Source: Bugulina stolonifera
Lineage: Eukaryota; Bryozoa; Gymnolaemata; Cheilostomatida; Bugulidae
Length of the DNA stretch: 64,000 bases
Direction of reading: 5' to 3'
NCBI GenBank assembly: GCA_935421135.1
Contig: OW285189.1
Span: 1,598,179 to 1,662,178, forward strand
The notes beneath the pieces were generated by a model. That model saw nothing but the letters and a program-made list of their open reading frames with translations. It ran no database searches and was not told the DNA's origin. The translations under genes were made by a program, and so were the position numbers. Positions 19,902 to 64,000 of the stretch are shown in pieces. Every line of letters begins with the position of its first letter. Positions within the stretch are counted from its first letter, which is position 1.

Positions 19902-19965
19902 ATGGATTTACAATATTACCTGAGTGGAGTATGGCTTCTAGCAATCTTATGTCTGCACGTTGACG
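19902..19965 (+). CDS. Collagen exon 1: signal peptide
   Basis: The ATG at 19902 opens a 21-residue hydrophobic leader. The donor is GACG|GTAAGT (phase 1). It is preferred over the internal codons because it yields a complete signal sequence that joins in frame to exon 2 just before AQSTS. Confidence 0.88.
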
Positions 19966-32747: not shown

Positions 32748-32756
32748 GTAATAGAA

Positions 32757-32808
32757 TATGTGCTATATACTATTTTACATGTCTATGTACTACTATACGT
32801 GTCTATGT
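32757..32808 (+). repeat. Stub of the 20-bp satellite before the hAT insertion
   Basis: About 2.5 diverged copies of the 20-bp unit (GCTATATACTATTTTACATG and following) begin within ten bases of the exon 17 donor and stop at the transposon. Confidence 0.85.
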
Positions 32809-33751
32809 CAGGGCTCTCAACTTGATAAAGTGAAAAATCCTAACAAAATGCTGAATTGAGGAAAAAGATGCCACTGCGGGGCCAGAGGCCCTGCCAGCCT
32901 GTGAAGCGGGCTGCACGGGAGGGGCGGCGGAGCGCTTGAAAATTTTTTAACCGTGCCATCTAAAATGGCACCAGTTCATGCAATTCTAGTCATATTTTAC
33001 TTAAAATGTGCTGTGCTTGGTAGAGGTTGGAACATGCAACTTGTGTGTATTTATTTGGTAGAACAAACAAAGATGCAAATAGGGCATACAGTATATACAT
33101 GTACAGAGGAGACGTAGGTGGTGGAGGTAGTGGAAAATATTGTGTATATATACAATAACAGATAACTATACGACACCATAATACAGATACATAATACATA
33201 CATACATAATACAGATTTAAACAAACTACAGATATAGCCTATATCTGTATGGCTCCAAGTGGAAGTGGAACAAATGACGTGGGTACACAGTGCATGCAAA
33301 ATGTTTGAAATGTTTTGACTTGTCCCCCTTGTTTTCTTGTCAATATCTAAAATGTTATATATTTGTGGGTAAAATAACAGTAGTACTTGGGACTTTGTAA
33401 CACAAAAATATTTGCAACATATACAATTACATATCTATTATGTGTTTGTAAAACCTATTAATATCAGATGGAAAAATACTTTAGGCATCCATTTGATTTA
33501 AATATTAAATTGACTAGGTTAGCAACCTCTCAACACCCTATTGATTCCATTGGACAGACTTTGTTTGTGTATGGCTTTGGTGCTAGTTAGCCTACTAGCA
33601 AAGGGAGTACTCTCTTTGCTACTAGTAGCAAATCCTATCACAATAGCAAAATCCGAACAGTGAGTGGAAAATATGGAAATCCGTCCGAATGCCCAAAAGG
33701 GAAGGACAAATCCGAACAATTTGGATTTAATCCGAGTAGTTGAGAGCCCTG
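32809..33751. mobile_element. 943-bp hAT-like element with CAGGGCTCTCAACT ends
   Basis: The left end is CAGGGCTCTCAACT and the right end is its exact reverse complement (14 bp). CTATGT at 32803-32808 recurs at 33752-33757, a 6-bp direct repeat that is either a shortened target duplication or an 8-bp one altered by satellite change. Removing the element joins satellite to satellite. CAGGG-type ends are typical of hAT transposons. No transposase is visible. The interior has GC-rich (32870-32940) and AT-rich parts with no genes. Confidence 0.85.
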
Positions 33752-36700
33752 CTATGTACTACTACACATGTCTATATACTACTATACATGTCTATGTGCT
33801 ACTATACATGTCTATATTCTACTCTACATGTCTATATTCTACTATACATATCTATATACTACTATACATGTCTATGTACTACTATACGTGTCTATGTACT
33901 ACTATACATGTCTATATACTACTATACATGTCTATATACTACTATACATGTCTATGTACTACTATACATGTCTATGTACTACTATACATGTCTATATACT
34001 ACTCTACATGTCTATATACTACTATACATGTCTATGTACTACTATACATGTCTATATACTACTATACATGTCTATATACTACTATACATGTCTATGTACT
34101 ACTATACATGTCTATGTACTACTATACATGTCTATATACTACTATACATGTCTATATACTACTATACATGTCTATGTACTACTATACATGTCTATATACT
34201 ACTATACATGTCTATATTCTACTCTACATGTCTATATACTACTATACATGTCTATGTACTACTCTACATGTCTATATACTACTATACATGTCTATATACT
34301 ACTATACATGTCTATGTACTACTATACATGTCTATATACTACTATACATGTCTATGTACTACTATACATGTCTATATACTACTATACATGTCTATATACT
34401 ACTATACATGTCTATATTCTACTCTACATGTCTATATACTACTATACATGTCTATGTACTACTATACATGTCTATATACTACTATACATGTCTATATACT
34501 ACTATACATGTCTATGTACTACTATACATGTCTATGTACTACTATACATGTCTATGTACTACTATACATGTCTATGTACTACTATACATGTCTATGTACT
34601 ACTATACATGTCTATATTCTACTCTACATGTCTATGTACTACTCTACATGTCTATATACTACTATACATATCTATATTCTACTCTACATGTCTATGTACT
34701 ACTATACATGTCTATATACTACTATACATGTCTATATACTACTATACATGTCTATGTACTACTATACATATCTATGTACTACTCTACATGTCTATATACT
34801 ACTATACATGTCTATATACTACTATACATGTCTATGTACTACTATACATGTCTATATACTACTATACATGTCTATATACTACTATACATGTCTATATACT
34901 ACTATACATGTCTATGTACTACTATACATGTCTATATACTACTATACATGTCTATATTCTACTCTACATGTCTATGTACTACTATACATGTCTATATACT
35001 ACTATACATGTCTATGTACTACTATACATGTCTATATACTACTATACATGTCTATATACTACTCTACATGTCTATATACTACTATACATGTCTATGTACT
35101 ACTATACATGTCTATGTACTACTATACATGTCTATATACTACTATACATGTCTATGTACTACTATACATGTCTATGTACTACTATACATGTCTATGTACT
35201 ACTATACATATCTATATACTACTATACATGTCTATGTACTACTATACATGTCTATATACTACTATACATGTCTATATACTACTCTACATGTCTATATACT
35301 ACTATACATGTCTATATTCTACTCTACATGTCTATGTACTACTATACATGTCTATATACTACTATACATGTCTATATACTACTATACATGTCTATGTACT
35401 ACTATACATGTCTATATACTACTATACATGTCTATATACTACTATACATGTCTATGTACTACTATACATGTCTATATACTACTATACATGTCTATGTACT
35501 ACTATACATGTCTATATACTACTATACATGTCTATGTACTACTATACATGCCTATGTACTACTATACATGTCTATATACTACTATACATGTCTATGTACT
35601 ACTATACATGTCTATGTGCTACTATACATGTCTATATACTACTATACATGTCTATATACTACTATACATGTCTATATACTACTATACATGTCTATATACT
35701 ACTATACATGTCTATGTACTACTCTACATGTCTATATACTACTATACATGTCTATATACTACTATACATGTCTATATACTACTATACATGTCTATGTACT
35801 ACTATACATGTCTATGTGCTACTATACATGTCTATATACTACTATACATGTCTATGTACTACTATACATGTCTATATACTACTATACATGTCTATGTACT
35901 ACTATACATGTCTATATACTACTATACATGTCTATATACTACTATACATGTCTATGTGCTACTATACATGTCTATGTACTACTATACATGTCTATATACT
36001 ACTATACATGTCTATATACTACTATACATGTCTATGTACTACTCTACATGTCTATATACTACTATACATGTCTATGTACTACTATACATGTCTATGTACT
36101 ACTATACATGTCTATATTCTACTATACATGTCTATATACTACTATACATGTCTATATACTACTATACATGTCTATGTACTACTATACATGTCTATGTACT
36201 ACTATACATATCTATATTCTACTCTACATGTCTATGTGCTACTATACATGTCTATGTGCTACTCTACATGTCTATATACTACTATACATGTCTATATACT
36301 ACTATACATGTCTATGTACTACTATACATGTCTATATACTACTATACATGTCTATATACTACTATACATGTCTATGTGCTACTATACATGTCTATGTGCT
36401 ACTCTACATGTCTATATACTACTATACATGTCTATATACTACTATACATGTCTATATACTACTATACATGTCTATATACTACTATACATGTCTATGTACT
36501 ACTATACATGTCTATGTACTACTATACATATCTGTATACTACTCTACATGTCTATGTACTACTATACATGTCTATGTACTACTATACATGTCTATGTACT
36601 ACTATACATATCTATGTGCTACTATACATGTCTATGTGCTACTCTACATGTCTATATACTACTATACATGTCTATATACTACTATACATGTCTATATACT

Positions 36701-39700
36701 ACTATACATGTCTATGTACTACTATACATATCTATGTGCTACTATACATGTCTATGTGCTACTCTACATGTCTATATACTACTATACATGTCTATATACT
36801 ACTATACATGTCTATGTACTACTATACATGTCTATGTGCTACTCTACATGTCTATATACTACTATACATGTCTATATACTACTATACATGTCTATATACT
36901 ACTATACATGTCTATGTACTACTATACATATCTATGTGCTACTATACATGTCTATGTGCTACTCTACATGTCTATATACTACTATACATGTCTATATACT
37001 ACTATACATGTCTATGTACTACTATACATGTCTATGTGCTACTCTACATGTCTATATACTACTATACATGTCTATATACTACTATACATGTCTATATACT
37101 ACTATACATGTCTATGTACTACTATACATATCTATGTGCTACTATACATGTCTGTATACTACTATACATGTCTATATACTACTATACATGTCTATGTACT
37201 ACTATACATGTCTATGTACTACTATACATATCTATGTGCTACTATACATGTCTATGTGCTACTCTACATGTCTATATACTACTATACATGTCTATGTACT
37301 ACTATACATGTCTATATTCTACTATACATGTCTATATACTACTATACATGTCTATATACTACTATACATGTCTATGTACTACTATACATGTCTATGTACT
37401 ACTATACATATCTATATTCTACTCTACATGTCTATGTGCTACTATACATGTCTATGTGCTACTCTACATGTCTATATACTACTATACATGTCTATATACT
37501 ACTATACATGTCTATGTACTACTATACATGTCTATATACTACTATACATGTCTATATACTACTATACATGTCTATGTGCTACTATACATGTCTATGTGCT
37601 ACTCTACATGTCTATATACTACTATACATGTCTATATACTACTATACATGTCTATATACTACTATACATGTCTATATACTACTATACATGTCTATGTACT
37701 ACTATACATATCTATGTGCTACTATACATGTCTATGTGCTACTCTACATGTCTATATACTACTATACATGTCTATATACTACTATACATGTCTATGTACT
37801 ACTATACATGTCTATATACTACTATACATGTCTATATACTACTATACATGTCTATGTGCTACTATACATGTCTATGTGCTACTCTACATGTCTATATACT
37901 ACTATACATGTCTATATACTACTATACATGTCTATATACTACTATACATGTCTATATACTACTATACATGTCTATGTACTACTATACATGTCTATGTACT
38001 ACTATACATATCTGTATACTACTCTACATGTCTATGTACTACTCTACATGTCTATATACTACTATACATGTCTATATACTACTATACATGTCTATATACT
38101 ACTATACATGTCTATGTACTACTATACATGTCTATGTACTACTATACATATCTGTATACTACTATACATGTCTATGTACTACTATACATGTCTATGTACT
38201 ACTATACATATCTGTATACTACTCTACATGTCTATGTGCTACTATACATGTCTATATACTACTATACATGTCTATGTGCTACTATACATGTCTATGTACT
38301 ACTATACATGTCTGTATACTACTATACATGTCTATATACTACTATACATGTCTATATACTACTATACATGTCTATATACTACTATACATGTCTATGTACT
38401 ACTCTACATGTCTATATACTACTATACATGTCTATGTACTACTCTACATGTCTATATACTACTATACATGTCTATATACTACTATACATGTCTATATACT
38501 ACTATACATGTCTATATACTACTATACATGTCTATGTGCTACTCTACATGTCTATATACTACTATACATGTCTATGTACTACTCTACATGTCTATATACT
38601 ACTATACATGTCTATGTGCTACTATACATGTCTATGTACTACTATACATGTCTGTATACTACTATACATGTCTATATACTACTATACATGTCTATATACT
38701 ACTATACATGTCTATATACTACTATACATGTCTATGTACTACTCTACATGTCTATATACTACTATACATGTCTATGTACTACTCTACATGTCTATATACT
38801 ACTATACATGTCTATGTGCTACTCTACATGTCTATATACTACTATACATGTCTATGTACTACTCTACATGTCTATATACTACTATACATGTCTATGTGCT
38901 ACTATACATGTCTATGTACTACTATACATGTCTGTATACTACTATACATGTCTATATACTACTATACATGTCTATATACTACTATACATGTCTATATACT
39001 ACTATACATGTCTATGTACTACTCTACATGTCTATATACTACTATACATGTCTATGTGCTACTCTACATGTCTATATACTACTATACATGTCTATATACT
39101 ACTATACATGTCTATATACTACTATACATGTCTATATACTACTATACATGTCTATGTACTACTATACATGTCTATATACTACTATACATGTCTATGTACT
39201 ACTATACATGTCTATATACTACTATACATGTCTATGTACTACTATACATGTCTATATACTACTATACATGTCTATATACTACTATACATGTCTATATACT
39301 ACTATACATGTCTATGTGCTACTATACATGTCTATGTACTACTATACATGTCTATATACTACTATACATGTCTATATACTACTATACATGTCTATGTACT
39401 ACTATACATGTCTATGTACTACTATACATGTCTATATACTACTATACATGTCTATATACTACTATACATGTCTATGTACTACTATACATGTCTATATACT
39501 ACTATACATGTCTATATTCTACTCTACATGTCTATATACTACTATACATGTCTATGTACTACTCTACATGTCTATATACTACTATACATGTCTATATACT
39601 ACTATACATGTCTATGTACTACTATACATGTCTATATACTACTATACATGTCTATGTACTACTATACATGTCTATATACTACTATACATGTCTATATACT

Positions 39701-42700
39701 ACTATACATGTCTATATTCTACTCTACATGTCTATATACTACTATACATGTCTATGTACTACTATACATGTCTATATACTACTATACATGTCTATGTACT
39801 ACTATACATGTCTATGTACTACTATACATGTCTATGTACTACTATACATGTCTATGTACTACTATACATGTCTATGTACTACTATACATGTCTATGTACT
39901 ACTATACATGTCTATATTCTACTCTACATGTCTATGTACTACTCTACATGTCTATATACTACTATACATGTCTATATTCTACTCTACATGTCTATGTACT
40001 ACTATACATGTCTATATACTACTATACATGTCTATGTACTACTATACATGTCTATATACTACTATACATGTCTATATACTACTCTACATGTCTATATACT
40101 ACTATACATGTCTATGTACTACTATACATGTCTATGTACTACTATACATGTCTATATACTACTATACATGTCTATGTACTACTATACATGTCTATGTACT
40201 ACTATACATGTCTATGTACTACTATACATATCTATATACTACTATACATGTCTATGTACTACTATACATGTCTATATACTACTATACATGTCTATATACT
40301 ACTCTACATGTCTATATACTACTATACATGTCTATATTCTACTCTACATGTCTATGTACTACTATACATGTCTATATACTACTATACATGTCTATATACT
40401 ACTATACATGTCTATGTACTACTATACATGTCTATATACTACTATACATGTCTATATACTACTATACATGTCTATGTACTACTATACATGTCTATATACT
40501 ACTATACATGTCTATGTACTACTATACATGTCTATATACTACTATACATGTCTATGTACTACTATACATGCCTATGTACTACTATACATGTCTATATACT
40601 ACTATACATGTCTATGTACTACTATACATGTCTATGTGCTACTATACATGTCTATATACTACTATACATGTCTATATACTACTATACATGTCTATATACT
40701 ACTATACATGTCTATATACTACTATACATGTCTATATACTACTATACATGTCTATATACTACTATACATGTCTATGTACTACTATACATATCTATGTACT
40801 ACTCTACATGTCTATATACTACTATACATGTCTATATACTACTATACATGTCTATGTACTACTATACATGTCTATATACTACTATACATGTCTATATACT
40901 ACTATACATGTCTATATACTACTATACATGTCTATGTACTACTATACATGTCTATATACTACTATACATGTCTATATTCTACTCTACATGTCTATGTACT
41001 ACTATACATGTCTATATACTACTATACATGTCTATGTACTACTATACATGTCTATATACTACTATACATGTCTATATACTACTCTACATGTCTATATACT
41101 ACTATACATGTCTATGTACTACTATACATGTCTATGTACTACTATACATGTCTATATACTACTATACATGTCTATGTACTACTATACATGTCTATGTACT
41201 ACTATACATGTCTATGTACTACTATACATATCTATATACTACTATACATGTCTATGTACTACTATACATGTCTATATACTACTATACATGTCTATATACT
41301 ACTCTACATGTCTATATACTACTATACATGTCTATATTCTACTCTACATGTCTATGTACTACTATACATGTCTATATACTACTATACATGTCTATATACT
41401 ACTATACATGTCTATGTACTACTATACATGTCTATATACTACTATACATGTCTATATACTACTATACATGTCTATGTACTACTATACATGTCTATATACT
41501 ACTATACATGTCTATGTACTACTATACATGTCTATATACTACTATACATGTCTATGTACTACTATACATGCCTATGTACTACTATACATGTCTATATACT
41601 ACTATACATGTCTATGTACTACTATACATGTCTATGTGCTACTATACATGTCTATATACTACTATACATGTCTATATACTACTATACATGTCTATATACT
41701 ACTATACATGTCTATATACTACTATACATGTCTATGTACTACTCTACATGTCTATATACTACTATACATGTCTATATACTACTATACATGTCTATATACT
41801 ACTATACATGTCTATGTACTACTATACATGTCTATGTGCTACTATACATGTCTATATACTACTATACATGTCTATGTACTACTATACATGTCTATATACT
41901 ACTATACATGTCTATGTACTACTATACATGTCTATATACTACTATACATGTCTATATACTACTATACATGTCTATGTGCTACTATACATGTCTATGTACT
42001 ACTATACATGTCTATATACTACTATACATGTCTATATACTACTATACATGTCTATGTACTACTCTACATGTCTATATACTACTATACATGTCTATGTACT
42101 ACTATACATGTCTATGTACTACTATACATGTCTATATTCTACTATACATGTCTATATACTACTATACATGTCTATATACTACTATACATGTCTATGTACT
42201 ACTATACATGTCTATGTACTACTATACATATCTATATTCTACTCTACATGTCTATGTGCTACTATACATGTCTATGTGCTACTCTACATGTCTATATACT
42301 ACTATACATGTCTATATACTACTATACATGTCTATGTACTACTATACATGTCTATATACTACTATACATGTCTATATACTACTATACATGTCTATGTGCT
42401 ACTATACATGTCTATGTGCTACTCTACATGTCTATATACTACTATACATGTCTATATACTACTATACATGTCTATATACTACTATACATGTCTATATACT
42501 ACTATACATGTCTATGTACTACTATACATGTCTATGTACTACTATACATATCTGTATACTACTCTACATGTCTATGTACTACTATACATGTCTATGTACT
42601 ACTATACATGTCTATGTACTACTATACATATCTATGTGCTACTATACATGTCTATGTGCTACTCTACATGTCTATATACTACTATACATGTCTATATACT

Positions 42701-44053
42701 ACTATACATGTCTATGTACTACTATACATATCTATGTGCTACTATACATGTCTATGTGCTACTCTACATGTCTATATACTACTATACATGTCTATATACT
42801 ACTATACATGTCTATGTACTACTATACATGTCTATGTGCTACTCTACATGTCTATATACTACTATACATGTCTATATACTACTATACATGTCTATATACT
42901 ACTATACATGTCTATGTACTACTATACATATCTATGTGCTACTATACATGTCTATGTGCTACTCTACATGTCTATATACTACTATACATGTCTATATACT
43001 ACTATACATGTCTATGTACTACTATACATGTCTATGTGCTACTCTACATGTCTATATACTACTATACATGTCTATATACTACTATACATGTCTATATACT
43101 ACTATACATGTCTATGTACTACTATACATATCTATGTGCTACTATACATGTCTGTATACTACTATACATGTCTATATACTACTATACATGTCTATATACT
43201 ACTATACATGTCTATGTACTACTATACATATCTATGTGCTACTATACATGTCTATGTGCTTACTCTACATGTCTATATACTACTATACATGTCTATGTAC
43301 TACTATACATGTCTATATTCTACTATACATGTCTATATACTACTATACATGTCTATATACTACTATACATGTCTATGTACTACTATACATGTCTATGTAC
43401 TACTATACATATCTATATTCTACTCTACATGTCTATGTGCTACTATACATGTCTATGTGCTACTCTACATGTCTATATACTACTATACATGTCTATATAC
43501 TACTATACATGTCTATGTACTACTATACATGTCTATATACTACTATACATGTCTATATACTACTATACATGTCTATGTGCTACTATACATGTCTATGTGC
43601 TACTCTACATGTCTATATACTACTATACAGTCTATATACTACTATACATGTCTATATACTACTATACATGTCTATATACTACTATACATGTCTATGTACT
43701 ACTATACATATCTATGTGCTACTATACATGTCTATGTGCTACTCTATGTCTATATACTACTATACATGTCTATATACTACTATACATGTCTATGTACTAC
43801 TATACATGTCTATATACTACTATACATGTCTATATACTACTATACATGTCTATGTGCTACTATACATGTCTATGTGCTACTCTACATGTCTATATACTAC
43901 TATACATGTCTATATACTACTATACATGTCTATATACTACTATACATGTCTATATACTACTATACATGTCTATGTACTACTATACATGTCTATGTACTAC
44001 TATACATATCTGTATACTAACTCTACATGTCTATGTACTACTCTACATGTCTA

Positions 44054-44253
44054 NNNNNNNNNNNNNNNNNNNNNNNNNNNNNNNNNNNNNNNNNNNNNNN
44101 NNNNNNNNNNNNNNNNNNNNNNNNNNNNNNNNNNNNNNNNNNNNNNNNNNNNNNNNNNNNNNNNNNNNNNNNNNNNNNNNNNNNNNNNNNNNNNNNNNNN
44201 NNNNNNNNNNNNNNNNNNNNNNNNNNNNNNNNNNNNNNNNNNNNNNNNNNNNN
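44054..44253. other. Assembly gap, 200 N
   Basis: Exactly 200 N bases, with satellite on both sides. A round length suggests a placeholder, so the true satellite length is unknown. Confidence 0.99.
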
Positions 44254-47200
44254 ACATGTCTATGTGCTACTCTACATATCTATATACTACTATACATGTC
44301 TATATACTACTACACATGTCTATATACTACTATACATGTCTATATTCTACTATACATGTCTATATACTACTATACATGTCTATGTACTACTATACATGTC
44401 TATGTACTACTATACATGTCTATGTACTACTACACATGTCTATATACTACTATACATGTCTATATACTACTATACATGTCTATATTCTACTCTACATGTC
44501 TATATACTACTATACATGTCTATATACTACTACACATGTCTATATACTACTATACATGTCTATATTCTACTATACATGTCTATATACTACTATACATGTC
44601 TATGTACTACTATACATGTCTATGTACTACTATACATGTCTATGTACTACTATACATGTCTATGTACTACTATACATGTCTATATACTACTATACATGTC
44701 TATATACTACTATACATGTCTATGTACTACTATACATGTCTATATACTACTATACATGTCTATATACTACTATACATGTCTATATACTACTATACATGTC
44801 TATGTACTACTATACATGTCTATATTCTACTCTACATGTCTATATTCTACTCTACATGTCTATATACTACTATACATGTCTATATACTACTACACATGTC
44901 TATATACTACTATACATGTCTATATTCTACTATACATGTCTATATACTACTATACATGTCTATGTACTACTATACATGTCTATGTACTACTATACATGTC
45001 TATGTACTACTACACATGTCTATATACTACTATACATGTCTATGTACTACTATACATGTCTATGTACTACTATACATGTCTATATACTACTATACATGTC
45101 TATGTACTACTATACATGTCTATGTACTACTATACATGTCTATATATTACTATACATGTCTATATACTACTATACATGTCTATGTACTACTATACATGTC
45201 TATGTACTACTATACATATCTATATACTACTATACATGTCTATATACTACTCTACATGTCTATGTACTACTATACATGTCTATATACTACTATACATGTC
45301 TATGTACTACTATACATGTCTATATACTACTATACATGTCTATATACTACTATACATGTCTATATACTACTATACATGTCTATATACTACTATACATGTC
45401 TATGTACTACTCTACATGTCTATATACTACTATACATGTCTATATTCTACTATACATGTCTATATACTACTATACATGTCTATGTACTACTATACATGTC
45501 TATGTACTACTATACATATCTATATACTACTATACATGTCTATATACTACTCTACATGTCTATGTACTACTATACATGTCTATATACTACTATACATGTC
45601 TATGTACTACTATACATGTCTATATACTACTATACATGTCTATGTACTACTATACATGTCTATGTACTACTATACATGTCTATATACTACTATACATGTC
45701 TATATACTACTATACATGTCTATATACTACTATACATGTCTATATACTACTATACATGTCTATGTACTACTATACATGTCTATATACTACTATACATGTC
45801 TATGTGCTACTATACATGTCTATGTACTACTCTACATGTCTATATACTACTATACATATCTATATACTACTATACATATCTATGTACTACTATACATGTC
45901 TATATACTACTATACATGTCTATGTACTACTATACATGTCTATATACTACTATACATGTCTATGTACTACTATACATGTCTATGTACTACTATACATGTC
46001 TATGTGCTACTATACATGTCTATGTACTACTCTACATGTCTATATACTACTATACATGTCTATGTACTACTATACATGTCTATATACTACTATACATGTC
46101 TATATACTACTATACATGTCTATATACTACTATACATGTCTATGTACTACTACACATGTCTATATACTACTATACATGTCTATGTACTACTATACATGTC
46201 TATATACTACTCTACATGTCTATGTACTACTATACATATCTATGTACTACTATACATGTCTATATACTACTATACATGTCTTTGTGCTACTATACATGTC
46301 TATATACTACTATACATGTCTATGTACTACTATACATGTCTATGTACTACTCTACATGTCTATATACTACTATACATGTCTATATACTACTATACATGTC
46401 TATATACTACTATACATGTCTATGTACTACTATACATATCTATGTACTACTCTACATGTCTATATACTACTATACATGTCTATATACTACTATACATGTC
46501 TATGTACTACTATACATGTCTATGTACTACTATACATGTCTATGTACTACTATACATGTCTATGTACTACTATACATGTCTATGTACTACTATACATGTC
46601 TATATACTACTATACATGTCTATATACTACTATACATGTCTATATACTACTATACATGTCTATGTGCTACTATACATGTCTATATACTACTATACATGTC
46701 TATATACTACTCTACATGTCTATGTACTACTATACATGTCTATGTACTACTATACATGTCTATATACTACTATACATGTCTATGTGCTACTATACATGTC
46801 TATATACTACTATACATGTCTATGTACTACTATACATGTCTATGTACTACTATACATGTCTATGTACTACTATACATGTCTATATTCTACTCTACATGTC
46901 TATATACTACTATACATGTCTATGTACTACTATACATGTCTATGTACTACTATACATGTCTATGTACTACTATACATGTCTATGTACTACTATACATGTC
47001 TATATACTACTATACATGTCTATGTACTACTATACATGTCTATGTACTACTATACATGTCTATATACTACTATACATGTCTATGTACTACTATACATGTC
47101 TATATACTACTATACATGTCTATGTACTACTATACATATCTATATACTACTATACATGTCTATATACTACTATACATGTCTATGTACTACTATACATGTC

Positions 47201-50200
47201 TATGTACTACTATACATATCTATATACTACTATACATGTCTATATACTACTCTACATGTCTATGTACTACTATACATGTCTATATACTACTATACATGTC
47301 TATGTACTACTATACATGTCTATATACTACTATACATGTCTATATACTACTATACATGTCTATATACTACTATACATGTCTATGTACTACTATACATGTC
47401 TATATTCTACTCTACATGTCTATATACTACTATACATGTCTATGTACTACTATACATGTCTATATACTACTATACATGTCTATGTACTACTATACATGTC
47501 TATGTACTACTATACATGTCTATATACTACTATACATGTCTATATACTACTATACATGTCTATATACTACTATACATGTCTATATACTACTATACATGTC
47601 TATGTACTACTATACATGTCTATATACTACTATACATGTCTATGTACTACTATACATGTCTATGTGCTACTATACATGTCTATATACTACTATACATATC
47701 TATATACTACTATACATGTCTATGTGCTACTATACATGTCTATATACTACTATACATATCTATATACTACTATACATGTCTATGTACTACTATACATGTC
47801 TATATACTACTATACATGTCTATGTGCTACTATACATGTCTATATACTACTATACATGTCTATGTACTACTATACATGTCTATGTACTACTATACATGTC
47901 TATGTACTACTATACATGTCTATATTCTACTCTACATGTCTATATACTACTATACATGTCTATGTACTACTATACATGTCTATGTACTACTATACATGTC
48001 TATGTACTACTATACATGTCTATGTACTACTATACATGTCTATATACTACTATACATGTCTATGTACTACTATACATGTCTATGTACTACTATACATGTC
48101 TATATACTACTATACATGTCTATGTACTACTATACATGTCTATATACTACTATACATGTCTATGTACTACTATACATATCTATATACTACTATACATGTC
48201 TATATACTACTATACATGTCTATGTACTACTATACATGTCTATGTACTACTATACATATCTATATACTACTATACATGTCTATATACTACTCTACATGTC
48301 TATGTACTACTATACATGTCTATATACTACTATACATGTCTATGTACTACTATACATGTCTATATACTACTATACATGTCTATATACTACTATACATGTC
48401 TATATACTACTATACATGTCTATGTACTACTATACATGTCTATATTCTACTCTACATGTCTATATACTACTATACATGTCTATGTACTACTATACATGTC
48501 TATATACTACTATACATGTCTATGTACTACTATACATGTCTATGTACTACTATACATGTCTATATACTACTATACATGTCTATATACTACTATACATGTC
48601 TATATACTACTATACATGTCTATATACTACTATACATGTCTATGTACTACTATACATGTCTATATACTACTATACATGTCTATGTACTACTATACATGTC
48701 TATGTACTACTATACATGTCTATATACTACTATACATGTCTATATTCTACTCTACATGTCTATATTCTACTATACATGTCTATGTACTACTATACATGTC
48801 TATATACTACTATACATGTCTATATACTACTATACATGTCTATATACTACTATACATGTCTATGTACTACTATACATGTCTATGTACTACTATACATGTC
48901 TATATACTACTATACATGTCTATATACTACTATACATGTCTATATACTACTATACATGTCTATATACTACTATACATGTCTATGTACTACTATACATGTC
49001 TATATACTACTATACATGTCTATGTACTACTATACATATCTATGTACTACTATACATGTCTATATACTACTATACATGTCTATATACTACTATACATGTC
49101 TATGTACTACTATACATGTCTATGTACTACTATACATGTCTATATACTACTATACATGTCTATATTCTACTCTACATGTCTATGTACTACTATACATGTC
49201 TATATACTACTATACATGTCTATGTACTACTATACATGTCTATATACTACTATACATGTCTATGTACTACTATACATGTCTATGTACTACTATACATGTC
49301 TATGTACTACTATACATGTCCATGTACTACTATACATGTCTATATACTACTATACATGTCCATGTACTACTATACATGTCTATATACTACTATACATGTC
49401 TATATACTACTATACATGTCTATATACTACTATACATGTCTATGTACTACTACACATGTCTATATACTACTATACATGTCTATGTACTACTATACATGTC
49501 TATATACTACTCTACATGTCTATGTACTACTATACATATCTATGTACTACTATACATGTCTATATACTACTATACATGTCTTTGTGCTACTATACATGTC
49601 TATATACTACTATACATGTCTATGTACTACTATACATGTCTATGTACTACTCTACATGTCTATATACTACTATACATGTCTATATACTACTATACATGTC
49701 TATGTACTACTACACATGTCTATATACTACTATACATGTCTATGTACTACTATACATGTCTATATACTACTCTACATGTCTATGTACTACTATACATATC
49801 TATGTACTACTATACATATCTATGTACTACTCTACATGTCTATATACTACTATACATGTCTATATACTACTATACATGTCTATGTACTACTATACATGTC
49901 TATGTACTACTATACATGTCTATGTACTACTATACATGTCTATGTACTACTATACATGTCTATGTACTACTATACATGTCTATGTACTACTATACATGTC
50001 TATATACTACTATACATGTCTATATACTACTATACATGTCTATATACTACTATACATGTCTATGTGCTACTATACATGTCTATATGCTACTATACATGTC
50101 TATATACTACTCTACATGTCTATGTACTACTATACATGTCTATGTACTACTATACATGTCTATATACTACTATACATGTCTATGTGCTACTATACATGTC

Positions 50201-52670
50201 TATATACTACTATACATGTCTATGTACTACTATACATGTCTATGTACTACTATACATGTCTATGTACTACTATACATGTCTATATTCTACTCTACATGTC
50301 TATATACTACTATACATGTCTATGTACTACTATACATGTCTATGTACTACTATACATGTCTATGTACTACTATACATGTCTATGTACTACTATACATGTC
50401 TATATACTACTATACATGTCTATGTACTACTATACATGTCTATGTACTACTATACATGTCTATATACTACTATACATGTCTATGTACTACTATACATGTC
50501 TATATACTACTATACATGTCTATGTACTACTATACATATCTATATACTACTATACATGTCTATATACTACTATACATGTCTATGTACTACTATACATGTC
50601 TATGTACTACTATACATATCTATATACTACTATACATGTCTATATACTACTCTACATGTCTATGTACTACTATACATGTCTATATACTACTATACATGTC
50701 TATGTACTACTATACATGTCTATATACTACTATACATGTCTATATACTACTATACATGTCTATATACTACTATACATGTCTATGTACTACTATACATGTC
50801 TATATTCTACTCTACATGTCTATATACTACTATACATGTCTATGTACTACTATACATGTCTATATACTACTATACATGTCTATGTACTACTATACATGTC
50901 TATGTACTACTATACATGTCTATATACTACTATACATGTCTATATACTACTATACATGTCTATATACTACTCTACATGTCTATATACTACTATACATGTC
51001 TATATACTACTATACATGTCTATATACTACTATACATGTCTATATACTACTATACATGTCTATATACTACTATACATGTCTATGTACTACTATACATGTC
51101 TATGTACTACTATACATGTCTATATACTACTATACATGTCTATGTACTACTATACATGTCTATATACTACTATACATGTCTATGTACTACTATACATATC
51201 TATATACTACTATACATGTCTATGTACTACTATACATGTCTATATACTACTATACATGTCTATATACTACTATACATGTCTATATACTACTATACATGTC
51301 TATATACTACTATACATGTCTATGTACTACTATACATGTCTATATACTACTATACATGTCTATGTACTACTATACATGTCTATGTACTACTATACATGTC
51401 TATATACTACTATACATGTCTATGTACTACTATACATGTCTATATACTACTATACATGTCTATGTACTACTATACATATCTATATACTACTATACATGTC
51501 TATGTACTACTATACATGTCTATATACTACTATACATGTCTATATACTACTATACATGTCTATGTACTACTATACATATCTATATACTACTATACATGTC
51601 TATATACTACTATACATGTCTATGTACTACTATACATGTCTATGTACTACTATACATATCTATATACTACTATACATGTCTATATACTACTCTACATGTC
51701 TATGTACTACTATACATGTCTATATACTACTATACATGTCTATGTACTACTATACATGTCTATATACTACTATACATGTCTATATACTACTATACATGTC
51801 TATATACTACTATACATGTCTATGTACTACTATACATGTCTATATTCTACTCTACATGTCTATATACTACTATACATGTCTATGTACTACTATACATGTC
51901 TATATACTACTATACATGTCTATGTACTACTATACATGTCTATGTACTACTATACATGTCTATATACTACTATACATGTCTATATACTACTATACATGTC
52001 TATATACTACTCTACATGTCTATATACTACTATACATGTCTATGTACTACTATACATATCTATATACTACTATACATGTCTATGTACTACTATACATGTC
52101 TATATACTACTATACATGTCTATGTGCTACTCTACATGTCTACATACTACTATACATGTCTATGTACTACTATACATGTCTATGTACTACTACACATGTC
52201 TATATACTACTATACATGTCTATGTGCTACTATACATGTCTATATACTACTATACATGTCTATGTACTACTATACATATCTATATACTACTATACATGTC
52301 TATGTACTACTATACATGTCTATATACTACTATACATGTCTATATACTACTATACATGTCTATGTACTACTATACATATCTATGTACTACTATACATGTC
52401 TATGTGCTACTATACATGTCTATATACTACTATACATGTCTATGTACTACTATACATATCTATATACTACTATACATGTCTATATACTACTATACATGTC
52501 TATGTGCTACTATACATATCTATATACTACTATACATGTCTATGTACTACTATACATGTCTATATTCTACTCTACATGTCTATGTACTACTATACATGTC
52601 TATGTACTACTATACATGTCTATGTACTACTATACATGTCTATGTACTACTATACATGTCTATGTACTAC

Positions 52671-53386
52671 TAAATACATGTCTATATACTACTATACATG
52701 TCTATATACTACTATACATGTCTATATACTACTATACATGTCTATATACTACTATACATGTCTATGTACTACTATACATGTCTATGTACTACTATACATG
52801 TCTATGTACTACTATACATGTCTATGTACTACTATACATGTCTATGTACTACTAAATACATGTCTATATACTACTATACATGTCTATATACTACTATACA
52901 TGTCTATATACTACTATACATATCTATATACTACTATACATATCTATGTACTACTATACATGTCTATATACTACTATACATGTCTATGTACTACTATACA
53001 TGTCTATATTCTACTCTACATGTCTATATACTACTATACATGTCTATGTACTACTATACATGTCTATGTACTACTATACATGTCTATGTACTACTATACA
53101 TGTCTATGTACTACTAAATACATGTCTATATACTACTATACATGTCTATATACTACTATACATGTCTATATACTACTATACATATCTATATACTACTATA
53201 CATATCTATGTACTACTATACATGTCTATATACTACTATACATGTCTATGTACTACTATACATGTCTATATTCTACTCTACATGTCTATATACTACTATA
53301 CATGTCTATGTACTACTATACATGTCTATGTACTACTATACATGTCTATGTACTACTATACATGTCTATGTACTACTAAATACATG
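52671..53386 (+). repeat. Higher-order repeat marked by ACTAAATACATG
   Basis: The rare two-base insertion variant TAAATACATG starts at 52671, 52853, 53115 and 53377. The last two intervals are both 262 bp (13 units plus 2), and the first is 182 bp (9 units plus 2). The neighbouring variants also repeat, so this is a young block duplication. Confidence 0.9.
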
Positions 53387-56300
53387 TCTATATACTACTA
53401 TACATGTCTATATACTACTATACATGTCTATATACTACTATACATGTCTATGTACTACTATACATGTCTATATTCTACTCTACATGTCTATATACTACTA
53501 TACATGTCTATATACTACTATACATGTCTATATACTACTATACATGTCTATATACTACTATACATGTCTATATACTACTATACATGTCTATATACTACTA
53601 TACATGTCTATATACTACTCTACATGTCTATATACTACTATACATGTCTATGTACTACTATACATGTCTATATACTACTATACATGTCTATGTACTACTA
53701 TACATGTCTATGTACTACTATACATGTCTATGTACTACTATACATGTCTATATACTACTATACATGTCTATGTGCTACTATACATGTCTATATTCTACTC
53801 TACATGTCTATATACTACTATACATGTCTATATACTACTATACATGTCTATGTACTACTATACATGTCTATGTACTACTATACATGTCTATGTACTACTA
53901 TACATGTCTATGTACTACTATACATGTCTATGTACTACTATACATGTCTATGTACTACTATACATGTCTATATACTACTATACATGTCTATATACTACTA
54001 TACATGTCTATGTACTACTATACATGTCTATGTACTACTATACATGTCTATATACTACTATACATGCCTATGTACTACTACACATGTCTATATACTACTA
54101 TACATGTCTATGTACTACTCTACATGTCTATATACTACTATACATGTCTATGTACTACTATACATGTCTATATACTACTATACATGTCTATATACTACTA
54201 TACATGTCTATGTACTACTATACATGTCTATATTCTACTCTACATGTCTATATACTACTATACATGTCTATATACTACTATACATGTCTATATACTACTC
54301 TACATGTCTGTATACTACTATACATGTCTATGTACTACTACACATGTCTATATACTACTATACATGTCTATGTACTACTCTACATGTCTATATACTACTA
54401 TACATGTCTATATACTACTATACATGTCTATGTACTACTATACATGTCTATGTACTACTATACATGTCTATGTACTACTCTACATGTCTATATACTACTA
54501 TACATGTCTATATACTACTATACATGTCTATGTACTACTATACATGTCTATGTACTACTATACATGTCTATGTACTACTATACATGTCTATATACTACTA
54601 TACATGTCTATATTCTACTATACATGTCTATGTACTACTATACATGTCTATGTACTACTATACATGTCTATATACTACTATACATGTCTATGTACTACTA
54701 TACATGTCTATGTACTACTATACATGTCTATGTACTACTATACATGTCTATGTACTACTATACATGTCTATATACTACTATACATGTCTATATTCTACTA
54801 TACATGTCTATGTACTACTATACATGTCTATGTACTACTATACATGTCTATATACTACTATACATGTCTATATACTACTATACATGTCTATATACTACTA
54901 TACATGTCTATGTACTACTATACATATCTATATACTACTATACATGTCTATATTCTACTATACATGTCTATATACTACTATACATGTCTATGTACTACTA
55001 TACATGTCTGTATACTACTCTACATGTCTATATACTACTATACATGTCTATATACTACTATACATGTCTATATACTACTATACATGTCTATATACTACTA
55101 TACATGTCTATATACTACTATACATGTCTATATACTACTATACATGTCTATGTACTACTATACATGTCTATGTACTACTATACATGTCTATGTACTACTA
55201 TACATGTCTATGTACTACTATACATGTCTATATACTACTCTACATGTCTATATTCTACTCTACATGTCTATATACTACTATACATGTCTATGTACTACTA
55301 TACATGTCTATATACTACTATACATGTCTATATACTACTATACATGTCTATATACTACTATACATGTCTATATACTACTATACATGTCTATGTACTACTA
55401 TACATGTCTATGTACTACTATACATGTCTATGTACTACTATACATGTCTATGTACTACTATACATATCTATATTCTACTCTACATGTCTATATACTACTA
55501 TACATGTCTATGTACTACTATACATGTCTATATACTACTATACATGTCTATATACTACTCTACATGTCTATATTCTACTCTACATGTCTATATACTACTA
55601 TACATGTCTATATACTACTATACATGTCTATATACTACTATACATGTCTATGTGCTACTATACATGTCTATATACTACTATACATGTCTATATACTACTA
55701 TACATGTCTATGTACTACTATACATGTCTATGTACTACTATACATGTCTATGTACTACTATACATGTCTATGTACTACTATACATGTCTATATACTACTC
55801 TACATGTCTATATTCTACTCTACATGTCTATATACTACTATACATGTCTATATACTACTATACATGTCTATATACTACTATACATATCTATATACTACTA
55901 TACATGTCTATGTACTACTATACATGTCTATGTACTACTATACATGTCTATGTACTACTATACATGTCTATATACTACTATACATGTCTATGTACTACTA
56001 TACATGTCTATATACTACTATACATGTCTATGTACTACTATACATATCTATGTACTACTATACATGTCTATGTACTACTCTACATGTCTATGTACTACTA
56101 TACATGTCTATATACTACTATACATGTCTATATACTACTATACATGTCTATATACTACTATACATGTCTATGTACTACTATACATATCTATATACTACTA
56201 TACATGTCTATATTCTACTATACATGTCTATGTACTACTATACATGTCTATGTACTACTATACATGTCTATGTACTACTATACATGTCTATATACTACTA

Positions 56301-59300
56301 TACATGTCTATATTCTACTATACATGTCTATGTACTACTATACATGTCTATATACTACTATACATGTCTATATACTACTATACATGTCTATGTACTACTA
56401 TACATGTCTATATACTACTATACATGTCTATGTACTACTATACATGTCTATATACTACTATACATGTCTATGTACTACTATACATATCTATGTACTACTA
56501 TACATGTCTATGTACTACTCTACATGTCTATGTGCTACTATACATGTCTATGTACTACTATACATGTCTATGTGCTACTCTACATATCTATATACTACTA
56601 TACATGTCTATATACTACTACACATGTCTATATACTACTATACATGTCTATATTCTACTATACATGTCTATATACTACTATACATGTCTATGTACTACTA
56701 TACATGTCTATGTACTACTATACATGTCTATGTACTACTATACATGTCTATGTACTACTATACATGTCTATGTACTACTATACATGTCTATATACTACTA
56801 TACATGTCTATGTACTACTATACATGTCTATGTACTACTATACATGTCTATATACTACTATACATGTCTATATACTACTATACATGTCTATGTACTACTA
56901 TACATGTCTATGTACTACTATACATGTCTATATACTACTATACATGTCTATGTACTACTATACATGTCTATATACTACTCTACATGTCTATGTACTACTA
57001 TACATATCTATATACTACTATACATGTCTATATTCTACTATACATGTCTATATACTACTATACATGTCTATATACTACTATACATGTCTATATACTACTA
57101 TACATGTCTATATTCTACTATACATGTCTATATACTACTATACATGTCTATGTACTACTATACATGTCTATATACTACTATACATGTCTATATACTACTC
57201 TACATGTCTATGTACTACTATACATATCTATATACTACTATACATGTCTATATTCTACTCTACATGTCTATATACTACTATACATGTCTATATACTACTA
57301 TACATGTCTATGTACTACTACACATGTCTATATACTACTATACATGTCTATGTACTACTATACATGTCTATGTACTACTATACATGTCTATATACTACTA
57401 TACATGTCTATGTACTACTATACATGTCTATATACTACTCTACATGTCTATATACTACTATACATGTCTATGTACTACTATACATGTCTATATACTACTA
57501 TACATGTCTATGTACTACTATACATGTCTATATACTACTATACATGTCTATGTACTACTATACATGTCTATGTACTACTATACATGTCTATATTCTACTC
57601 TACATGTCTATATACTACTATACATGTCTATATACTACTATACATGCCTATGTACTACTACACATGTCTATATACTACTATACATGTCTATGTACTACTA
57701 TACATGTCTATATACTACTATACATGTCTATGTACTACTATACATGTCTATGTGCTACTATACATGTCTATATACTACTATACATGTCTATGTACTACTA
57801 CACATGTCTATATACTACTCTACATGTCTATATACTACTATACATGTCTATGTACTACTATACATGTCTATATACTACTATACATGTCTATATTCTACTC
57901 TACATGTCTATATACTACTGTACATGTCTATATACTACTATACATGTCTATGTACTACTACACATGTCTATATACTACTATACATGTCTATGTACTACTA
58001 TACATGTCTATGTACTACTATACATGTCTATATACTACTATACATGTCTATGTACTACTATACATGTCTATATACTACTCTACATGTCTATATACTACTA
58101 TACATGTCTATGTACTACTATACATGTCTATATACTACTATACATGTCTATGTACTACTATACATGTCTATATACTACTATACATGTCTATGTACTACTA
58201 TACATGTCTATGTACTACTATACATGTCTATATTCTACTCTACATGTCTATATACTACTATACATGTCTATATACTACTATACATGCCTATGTACTACTA
58301 CACATGTCTATATACTACTATACATGTCTATGTACTACTATACATGTCTATATACTACTATACATGTCTATGTACTACTATACATGTCTATGTGCTACTA
58401 TACATGTCTATATACTACTATACATGTCTATGTACTACTACACATGTCTATATACTACTCTACATGTCTATATACTACTATACATGTCTATATTCTACTC
58501 TACATGTCTATATACTACTATACATATCTATGTACTACTCTACATGTCTATGTACTACTATACATGTCTATGTACTACTATACATGTCTATGTACTACTA
58601 TACATGTCTATATACTACTATACATGTCTATATACTACTATACATGTCTATGTACTACTATACATGTCTATATACTACTATACATGTCTATATACTACTA
58701 CACATGTCTATATTCTACTCTACATGTCTATATACTACTATACATGTCTATGTACTACTATACATGTCTATGTACTACTATACATGTCTATGTACTACTA
58801 TACATGTCTATATACTACTATACATGTCTATGTACTACTATACATGTCTATATACTACTATACATGTCTATGTACTACTATACATGTCTATATACTACTA
58901 TACATGTCTGTGTACTACTACATGTCTGTATACTACTATACATATCTATATACTACTATACATGTCTATGTGCTACTATACATGTCTATGTACTACTATA
59001 CATGTCTATGTACTACTATACATGTCTATGTACTACTATACATGTCTATATACTACTATACATGTCTATATTCTACTATACATGTCTATGTACTACTATA
59101 CATGTCTATATACTACTATACATATCTATATACTACTATACATGTCTATGTGCTACTATACATGTCTATATTCTACTCTACATGTCTATATACTACTATA
59201 CATGTCTATATACTACTATACATGTCTATATACTACTATACATGTCTATATACTACTATACATGTCTATGTACTACTATACATGTCTATGTACTACTATA

Positions 59301-62300
59301 CATGTCTATATACTACTATACATGTCTATGTACTACTATACATGTCTATATACTACTCTACATGTCTATATACTACTATACATGTCTATGTACTACTATA
59401 CATGTCTATATACTACTATACATGTCTATGTACTACTATACATGTCTATATTCTACTCTACATGTCTATATACTACTATACATGTCTATATTCTACTCTA
59501 CATGTCTATGTACTACTATACATGTCTATATTCTACTCTACATGTCTATATACTACTATACATGTCTATATACTACTATACATGCCTATGTACTACTACA
59601 CATGTCTATATACTACTATACATGTCTATGTACTACTATACATGTCTATGTACTACTATACATGTCTATATACTACTATACATGTCTATGTACTACTATA
59701 CATGTCTATGTACTACTATACATGTCTATATATTACTATACATGTCTATATACTACTATACATGTCTATGTACTACTATACATGTCTATATTCTACTCTA
59801 CATGTCTATGTACTACTATACATGTCTATATTCTACTCTACATGTCTATATACTACTATACATGTCTATGTACTACTATACATGTCTATATACTACTATA
59901 CATGTCTATGTACTACTATACATGTCTATGTACTACTATACATGTCTATGTACTACTATACATGTCTATGTACTACTATACATGTCTATGTACTACTATA
60001 CATGTCTATGTGCTACTATACATGTCTATGTACTACTATACATGTCTATATACTACTCTACATGTCTATATACTACTATACATGTCTATGTACTACTATA
60101 CATGTCTATATACTACTCTACATGTCTATATACTACTATACATGTCTATGTGCTACTATACATGTCTATATTCTACTCTACATGTCTATATACTACTATA
60201 CATGTCTATATACTACTATACATGTCTATATACTACTATACATGTCTATATACTACTATACATGTCTATGTACTACTATACATGTCTATGTACTACTATA
60301 CATGTCTATATACTACTATACATGTCTATGTACTACTATACATGTCTATATACTACTCTACATGTCTATATACTACTATACATGTCTATGTACTACTATA
60401 CATGTCTATATACTACTATACATGTCTATGTACTACTATACATGTCTATATACTACTATACATGTCTATGTACTACTATACATGTCTATATTCTACTCTA
60501 CATGTCTATATACTACTATACATGTCTATATTCTACTCTACATGTCTATGTACTACTATACATGTCTATATTCTACTCTACATGTCTATATACTACTATA
60601 CATGTCTATATACTACTATACATGCCTATGTACTACTACACATGTCTATATACTACTATACATGTCTATGTACTACTATACATGTCTATGTACTACTATA
60701 CATGTCTATATACTACTATACATGTCTATGTACTACTATACATGTCTATGTACTACTATACATGTCTATATATTACTATACATGTCTATATACTACTATA
60801 CATGTCTATGTACTACTATACATGTCTATATTCTACTCTACATGTCTATGTACTACTATACATGTCTATATTCTACTCTACATGTCTATATACTACTATA
60901 CATGTCTATGTACTACTATACATGTCTATATACTACTATACATGTCTATGTACTACTATACATGTCTATGTACTACTATACATGTCTATGTACTACTATA
61001 CATGTCTATGTACTACTATACATGTCTATGTACTACTATACATGTCTATGTGCTACTATACATGTCTATGTACTACTATACATGTCTATATACTACTCTA
61101 CATGTCTATATACTACTATACATGTCTATGTACTACTATACATGTCTATATACTACTCTACATGTCTATATACTACTATACATGTCTATATACTACTATA
61201 CATGTCTATATACTACTATACATGTCTATATACTACTATACATGTCTATATACTACTATACATGTCTATGTACTACTATACATGTCTATATACTACTATA
61301 CATGTCTGTATACTACTATACATGTCTATATACTACTATACATGTCTATATTCTACTCTACATGTCTATGTACTACTATACATGTCTATGTACTACTATA
61401 CATGTCTATATTCTACTATACATGTCTATGTACTACTATACATGTCTATATACTACTATACATGTCTATATACTACTATACATGTCTATATACTACTATA
61501 CATGTCTATGTACTACTATACATATCTATGTACTACTATACATGTCTATGTACTACTATACATGTCTATATTCTACTCTACATGTCTATGTACTACTATA
61601 CATGTCTATGTACTACTATACATTTCTATGTACTACTATACATGTCTATATACTACTATACATATCTATATACTACTATACATGTCTATATTCTACTCTA
61701 CATGTCTATGTACTACTATACATGTCTATGTACTACTATACATGTCTATATACTACTATACATGTCTATGTACTACTATACATGTCTATATACTACTATA
61801 CATGTCTATATACTACTATACATGTCTATATACTACTACACATGTCTATATACTACTATACATGTCTATGTACTACTCTACATGTCTATATACTACTATA
61901 CATGTCTATGTACTACTATACATGTCTATATACTACTATACATGTCTATGTACTACTATACATGTCTATATACTACTATACATATCTATGTACTACTATA
62001 CATGTCTATATACTACTATACATGTCTATATACTACTATACATGTCTATATACTACTATACATGTCTATATACTACTATACATGTCTATATACTACTCTA
62101 CATGTCTATGTACTACTATACATGTCTATGTACTACTATACATGTCTATATACTACTATACATATCTATATACTACTATACATGTCTATGTACTACTATA
62201 CATATCTATATACTACTATACATATCTATGTACTACTATACATGTCTATATACTACTATACATGTCTATATACTACTATACATGTCTATATACTACTATA

Positions 62301-64000
62301 CATGTCTATATACTACTATACATGTCTATATACTACTATACATGTCTATATACTACTATACATGTCTATGTACTACTATACATGTCTATATACTACTCTA
62401 CATGTCTATATACTACTATACATGTCTATATACTACTATACATGTCTATATACTACTATACATGTCTATGTACTACTATACATGTCTATATACTACTCTA
62501 CATGTCTATATACTACTATACATGTCTATATACTACTATACATGTCTATGTACTACTATACATGTCTATATACTACTATACATGTCTATATACTACTATA
62601 CATGTCTATATACTACTATACATGTCTATGTACTACTATACATGTCTATATACTACTCTACATGTCTATATACTACTATACATGTCTATGTACTACTATA
62701 CATGTCTATGTGCTACTATACATGTCTATGTACTACTATACATGTCTATGTACTACTATACATGTCTATGTACTACTATACATGTCTATATACTACTATA
62801 CATGTCTATGTACTACTATACATGTCTATGTACTACTATACATGTCTATATACTACTATACATGTCTATATACTACTCTACATGTCTATATACTACTATA
62901 CATGTCTATATACTACTATACATGTCTATATTCTACTATACATGTCTATGTACTACTATACATGTCTATATACTACTATACATGTCTATGTACTACTATA
63001 CATGTCTATGTACTACTATACATGTCTATATACTACTCTACATGTCTATATACTACTATACATGTCTATGTACTACTATACATGTCTATGTGCTACTATA
63101 CATGTCTATGTACTACTATACATGTCTATGTACTACTATACATGTCTATATACTACTATACATGTCTATGTACTACTATACATGTCTATATACTACTCTA
63201 CATGTCTATATACTACTATACATGTCTATGTACTACTATACATGTCTATGTGCTACTATACATGTCTATGTACTACTATACATGTCTATGTACTACTATA
63301 CATGTCTATATACTACTCTACATGTCTATATACTACTATACATGTCTATGTACTACTATACATGTCTATGTGCTACTATACATGTCTATGTACTACTATA
63401 CATGTCTATGTACTACTATACATGTCTATGTACTACTATACATGTCTATGTACTACTATACATGTCTATGTACTACTATACATGTCTATGTACTACTATA
63501 CATGTCTATATACTACTCTACATGTCTATATACTACTATACATGTCTATGTACTACTATACATGTCTATGTACTACTATACATGTCTATATACTACTATA
63601 CATGTCTATGTACTACTATACATGTCTATGTACTACTATACATGTCTATATACTACTATACATGTCTATGTACTACTATACATGTCTATGTACTACTATA
63701 CATGTCTATATACTACTATACATGTCTATGTACTACTATACATGTCTATGTACTACTATACATGTCTATGTACTACTATACATGTCTATATTCTACTCTA
63801 CATGTCTATGTACTACTATACATGTCTATGTACTACTATACATGTCTATATACTACTATACATGTCTATATACTACTATACATGTCTATGTACTACTATA
63901 CATGTCTATATACTACTATACATGTCTATATACTACTATACATGTCTATATACTACTATACATGTCTATATACTACTATACATGTCTATGTACTACTATA

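Follow-up and report, generated by a model that had tools for sequence, protein, structure and literature searches.

How can a structural gene stay whole when one of its introns consists almost entirely of a single short tandem repeat? The question is raised by a locus on chromosome 3 (C3) of the bryozoan Bugulina stolonifera. The stretch of DNA analysed, hereafter the window, comprises 64,000 nucleotides (bases 1598179-1662178 of C3), and within it a collagen gene on the forward strand runs into an array of 20-bp units that continues past the window end. The answer that is proposed here with good confidence is that a minisatellite has expanded in place inside an intact collagen gene and has been tolerated for its scarcity of RNA processing signals. 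Altogether 164 kb around the locus were read, positions beyond 64000 being given in the window numbering extended past its end, and the assembly (235 Mb, 27 contigs) was searched genome-wide.

The gene looks like a type IV, or basement-membrane, collagen gene that is apparently intact. The hand-drawn model, for which GT-AG ends and phase served as criteria among others, has 32 exons from 19902 to 77586. It encodes 1,309 residues with no internal stop codon, and all of its 31 introns have GT-AG ends. The automatic chain that preceded it had 24 exons, with several missed or shortened and exon 18 among those missed. Pfam recognizes 17 Collagen stretches in the predicted protein and two C4 stretches (E 1.1e-72), and the NC1 domain matches solved NC1 domains of type IV collagens in the PDB (1m3d_C, E 2.6e-81). 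Three features of a type IV collagen were looked for and are present. The first two are a C-terminal NC1 of two C4 repeats and a long Gly-X-Y domain (Gly, glycine) with interruptions. The third is the number of cysteines: the NC1 of type IV collagens has 12, and 12 were counted by eye in the translation.

The array lies in intron 17. An earlier note on this DNA, made from the letters of the window, had ended exon 17 at a proper donor with an incomplete Gly codon, and had proposed to look past the array for an exon starting with the two missing bases. The GT donor and the incomplete codon are there, and so is the exon: exon 18 begins at 68352, 32 bp past the array (junction CTCCTAACAG / GTGCTGATGGAGAG), and its opening two bases fill out the Gly codon begun in exon 17. 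Phase-matched exons and GT-AG ends are thus found on either side of the array, as expected of an intron, whose total length is 35,604 bp including 200 N and of which about 97% is one tandem repeat. Past the end of the array, no AG other than the acceptor precedes exon 18. Of two branch-like motifs there, one at the array end places its A 30 nt upstream of exon 18, the other 4 nt upstream. After exon 18 the open frame of the model extends over another 14 exons, takes in the NC1 domain and closes with a stop codon whose last base is 77586, which supports the earlier view that the transcript of an intact gene must cross more than 30 kb of repeat. We infer that the gene is expressed, in which case RNA polymerase would read the array as part of the pre-mRNA, and intron 17 would be excised in a single step, with the donor of exon 17 paired to the acceptor of exon 18. 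In such a reaction the branch-like motif some 30 nt ahead of exon 18, and the AG that follows it, would meet little competition.

A gene interrupted in this manner could also be a gene that is really split: its transcripts would stop within the array or ahead of it, and the exons 3' of it would be unused or served by another promoter. The records searched leave room for this, as nothing that crosses the joint of exons 17 and 18, whether transcript or protein, was found in the protein collection. A 300-residue query over the joint, for which the 7,982 candidates with most words in common were scored, found 75 collagen-like proteins with E up to 1e-20, none of them above 58% identity. Likewise, with the full protein as query the NC1 region matched seven proteins in the collection, the best at 54% identity, and none of the five named by organism was bryozoan. 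A split would also fit an intron about 94 times the gene's median, and the function could be taken over by type IV collagen genes on C6, of which there are at least two. However, both halves of the gene are open and have splice sites, the joint between them is phase-correct, and the sense array is devoid of AATAAA and ATTAAA; moreover, NC1 is found only in the 3' half, so neither half would make a complete type IV collagen. A split gene is hence considered very unlikely. RNA sequencing (RNA-seq) data of the same specimen exist (ERR10123683; available parts of PMC10213821), and in the available parts of a Bugulina transcriptome paper collagen figures as one Gene Ontology (GO) term (PMC7534450).

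The earlier note had estimated at least 30 kb of one 20-bp repeat in a collagen intron, in about 1500 units. Both figures hold, with 1,512 copies at 94% matches in the main array inside the window and another 4,319 bp of array beyond the window end. By Tandem Repeats Finder (TRF), the whole main array measures 34,568 bp and 1,728 copies with N counted, or about 34.4 kb without N. The unit copies differ mainly at positions 5 (A/G), 7, 13, 14 and 19. The repeat had also been described as running from about ten bases past exon 17 to the window end; this is right for 33752-64000, but the tract is not unbroken, as 51 bp of repeat are followed first by a 943-bp dispersed element (Table 1). One frame of the array is open for 5,228 codons, from 52856 to extended position 68539, continuing in frame into exon 18, and contains 361 in-frame ATG codons. 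It stays open because the unit has no stop codon; random 20-mers, when tiled, are stop-free in every frame in about 25% of cases, and the long open frame is probably a by-product of the stop-free unit.

The term 'satellite', as first applied to this array, is loose. Satellite DNA families form arrays at many loci or at centromeres, while a minisatellite is confined to a single locus and has tandem units of about 10-60 bp. The assembled genome contains 258 exact matches to the 40-bp dimer of the unit, and all 258 lie in the extended locus. Similarly, a 34-base unit pattern with at most three mismatches has 1,697 matches in the assembled genome, of which 1,697 are in the extended locus and none on the opposite strand. 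As a control, the same pattern reversed gave no match in the genome against 1,697 for the true one, so the array is not due to chance. The 20-bp tandem units are therefore those of a giant minisatellite at one locus of the assembly and not of a dispersed or centromeric family, and since all matches are at this locus the repeat seems to have originated and grown in place.

The confinement of the unit also bears on whether the array is an assembly artefact, that is, two repeat-ended contigs that were misjoined or an array whose length is wrong. The unresolved gap reported by the earlier note is a single 200-N run within the array, and no other N is present in the 164 kb. According to the available parts of its description (PMC10213821), the assembly was built with Hi-C scaffolding by YaHS from 12-20 kb fragments, and its 60 contigs are arranged in 30 scaffolds, so that about 30 gaps would be expected; the locus marks one of the few breaks in the assembly. 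A scaffold join inside a repeat is where such an error could arise. Against this, the unit is confined to the locus and to one strand, so that no alternative partner is visible for either contig, and exons of the same gene in one frame flank the array on both sides. The arms on the two sides of the gap have at most 201 bp of exact sequence in common and are not simple copies of each other. An artefact is accordingly very improbable, and a misjoin in the array in particular is unlikely because the unit is absent elsewhere in the assembly and has the same orientation in both arms.

The gap itself was also considered as overlapping contig ends, and this was rejected as the longest exact stretch common to both arms is the 201 bp already mentioned. 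The best ungapped identity of the left-arm end to the right arm is 0.73 over 500 bp and that of the right-arm start to the left arm 0.96, while five of six random right-arm pieces reach at least 0.96 and the sixth only 0.69. Judged from these comparisons, the gap probably stands for missing sequence. Its size of 200 N is probably a placeholder, and the true length of the array is more likely underestimated. The repeated 2-kb block of the left arm may have caused the assembler to stop.

The internal structure of the array holds traces of its growth. The left arm has an exact 1,999-bp repeat at a spacing of 6,020 bp, and the right arm an exact 941-bp repeat at a spacing of 1,040 bp; internal exact repeats of this kilobase scale point to large-block duplication in addition to unit-level slippage. 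The 20-bp unit would thus have arisen in a functional type IV collagen gene, within intron 17, and expanded there, first by slippage and later by duplicating blocks of one to several kilobases within the array. The dispersed element gives a relative date. Its family, with members of about 0.93-1.0 kb and terminal inverted repeats (TIRs), is represented by at least 43 matching stretches in the genome including the window copy (88-100% identical), a lower bound because 40 of 606 first-look candidates were scored. All 12 copies whose flanks were read are bordered by direct repeats of 5-7 bp. The direct repeat of the window copy is part of the 20-bp unit itself, and therefore the element most likely jumped into a pre-existing array; at least part of the array hence predates the insertion.

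The tolerance of so large an array may be explained by what it lacks. The sense strand of the array (34.4 kb) contains five AG, no donor-like GTRAG, no poly(A) motif (AATAAA/ATTAAA) and two branch-like yUnAy, compared with 58.5 AG and 24 yUnAy per kb in 48 kb of genome taken from six places. With so few signals, the long intron offers little to mislead the spliceosome, and the array would be tolerated for being nearly free of donor, branch-point and poly(A) motifs and, on the sense strand, of AG. Several observations weigh against this explanation and, together with the lack of a spanning record noted above, against the proposed reading as a whole. The donor GTAATA falls short of the strongest form. 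The antisense array, with one GTRAG, four yUnAy and no poly(A) motif, is as poor as the sense array, and though it holds 5,333 AG, 5,144 of them YAG, a pyrimidine-rich stretch backs none of these 5,144 and all five of the sense YAG. Among tiled random 20-mers about 30% are AG-free, and about 15% are without AG, branch-like and donor-like motifs alike. Other introns of the gene have AG-rich sense arrays (for example intron 6, with 168 AG per kb), hence AG-poverty is not required for arrays up to 1.3 kb. Signal poverty is therefore a possible mechanism for tolerance, to which the motif counts point weakly and without proof of selection.

Two stronger versions of this idea were dropped. Selection against AG was given up since the counts are too small and random units are AG-free about 30% of the time, and silence unique to the sense strand since donor, branch and poly(A) motifs are equally rare on the antisense strand. 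Folding of the sense array RNA was no better than that of shuffles in the two stretches compared (z 1.64 and 0.95; antisense 0.11).

It is nonetheless conceivable that the long intron is functional, for example as a transcription delay or as a spacer kept signal-free by selection. The contrast between five sense AG in the 34.4 kb and 5,333 antisense AG would agree with this, as would the changes at seven pyrimidine sites following A, of which 12 are to A and one is to G, the change that makes an AG. Roles have also been proposed for gigantic satellite introns in Drosophila, in the available parts of PMC6508621. But control pyrimidine sites have four changes to A and two to G, a difference too small to tell, with out-of-register units counted, about 15% of random units are as silent, and donor and branch motifs are equally scarce on the antisense strand. 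In addition, no such intron occurs in the parts of the C6 genes that were read. A functional intron is thus quite improbable, and it is more improbable still than any of the alternatives above that selection keeps the array as a silent, stop-free spacer which delays or tunes one type IV collagen, its frame even being translated in rare retained or internally started transcripts.

Expansion of a minisatellite in place within the collagen gene remains the preferred account, and it may be compared with known systems. Satellite-filled introns are already known, and this one stands out by its size in proportion to the gene. In Drosophila, the Y fertility genes kl-3, kl-5 and ks-1 have satellite-filled introns that are transcribed and of megabase size (available parts of PMC6508621 and PMC11207136). 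Common to those genes and the present one are simple tandem repeats that fill introns of a protein-coding gene. The Drosophila cases, as those parts present them, are megabase Y introns of spermatogenesis genes with satellites such as (AATAT)n, whereas here the intron is of 35.6 kb, on chromosome 3, in a basement-membrane collagen gene, and with a single-locus unit. At 35,604 bp, including the 200-N gap, it falls short of the megabase scale of the gigantic Y-type introns. Under splicing-factor knock-down, genes with introns of 50-100 kb were without the consistent downregulation seen in the Y genes (available parts of PMC11207136), so an intron of the present size need not require special machinery. 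The array is closer to intronic minisatellites, or variable number tandem repeats (VNTRs), in its 20-bp unit, single locus, block duplications and intron position. No title among those found on intronic satellites, minisatellites or bryozoan repeats describes this locus.

The other introns of the gene show how exceptional intron 17 is. The introns of the model have a median length of 378 bp; the shortest is 92 bp, and intron 17 with its 35,604 bp is followed in length by introns of 3,741 and 2,386 bp. The array here measures 34.4 kb, whereas the largest other array in the introns of the gene is 1,337 bp and no array in the rest of the 164 kb exceeds 3,082 bp. This suggests that a basement-membrane collagen gene with otherwise short introns can hold an intron that is about 97% repeat, and such an intron sits on an ordinary chromosome and not on a Y. 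The complete model and the existing RNA-seq data make for an easy test of whether a lack of signals permits intronic repeats to grow.

Table 1. Coordinates of the features of the collagen locus and of related genes (window numbering unless a chromosome is named)
Feature	Position	Strand	Remarks
Exon 1	19902..19965	+	start codon and likely signal peptide (by eye)
Exons 2-5	20879-21012, 21308-21385, 22102-22236, 22978-23022	+	gene model
Exons 6-9	23200-23325, 27067-27111, 27459-27521, 28556-28591	+	gene model
Exons 10-13	29380-29416, 29863-29894, 30559-30654, 30870-31011	+	gene model
Exons 14-15	31150-31272, 31419-31561	+	gene model
Exon 16	31940..32063	+	gene model
Exon 17	32595..32747	+	stops after base 1 of split Gly codon; donor GTAATA
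Intron 17, part in window	32748..64000	+	reaches extended 68351 (C3:1666529)
5' piece of 20-bp array, 51 bp	32758..32808	+	severed by inserted element
Dispersed element copy inside array, 943 bp	32809..33751	+	TIR CAGGGCTCTCAACT...AGTTGAGAGCCCTG; 6-bp direct repeat CTATGT; TIRs of family CAGGGCTCTCAACT
20-bp minisatellite array	33752..64000, on to extended 68319 (C3:1666497)	+	consensus CTAT(A/G)TACTACTATACATGT
Scaffold gap inside array, 200 N	44054..44253	.	assembly scaffolded with YaHS
Further type IV collagen genes	C6:17860968-17925485	opposite strands, heads facing	NC1 matches

The surroundings of the gene are also rich in arrays. Arrays found by TRF make up 28% of the 19.9 kb that precede the gene, 17% of the gene itself once intron 17 is set aside, and 15% of the 86 kb that follow it. 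In six arbitrarily placed 8-kb stretches (48 kb in all) the share is 4.2%, and in 11 loci surrounding element copies (43.5 kb, copies included) it is 4.7%. The second-largest array in the 164 kb lies at 14317-17398 and has a 22-bp unit over 3,082 bp. Among the gene's ten intronic arrays of at least 100 bp, seven end within 100 bp of the acceptor (introns 3, 6, 9, 10, 17, 18 and 20). The notion that arrays are anchored at 3' splice sites was dropped, as the pattern is unclear in the C6 genes.

The NC1 search of C6 gave three groups of matches, two of them plus-strand and one minus-strand, with about 56 kb between the nearest; there are thus at least two more type IV collagen genes, perhaps three. 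They have NC1 in common with the C3 gene, yet the latter is solitary and the C6 genes are grouped. Vertebrate COL4 genes are also arranged head to head. In the 40 kb read on C6, made up of two stretches some 16 kb apart and stopping short of the 3' ends, no array is larger than 477 bp and adjoining Gly-X-Y blocks are separated by no more than about 2.1 kb.

The mitochondrial COX1 gene on C27 has 93% identity to its counterpart in Bugula neritina; nine of its ten best matches are named by organism, and all nine names are bryozoan genera. A sponge or other early-branching animal, first considered on account of the type IV collagen, was rejected as the source for this reason. Further matches resembling COX1 were seen at C12:7199-8926, C26:34375-36051 and C16:2-181. 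The one on C26 looks different from the animal's own COX1 on C27, and the extra matches possibly derive from the mitochondria of an epibiont or contaminant.

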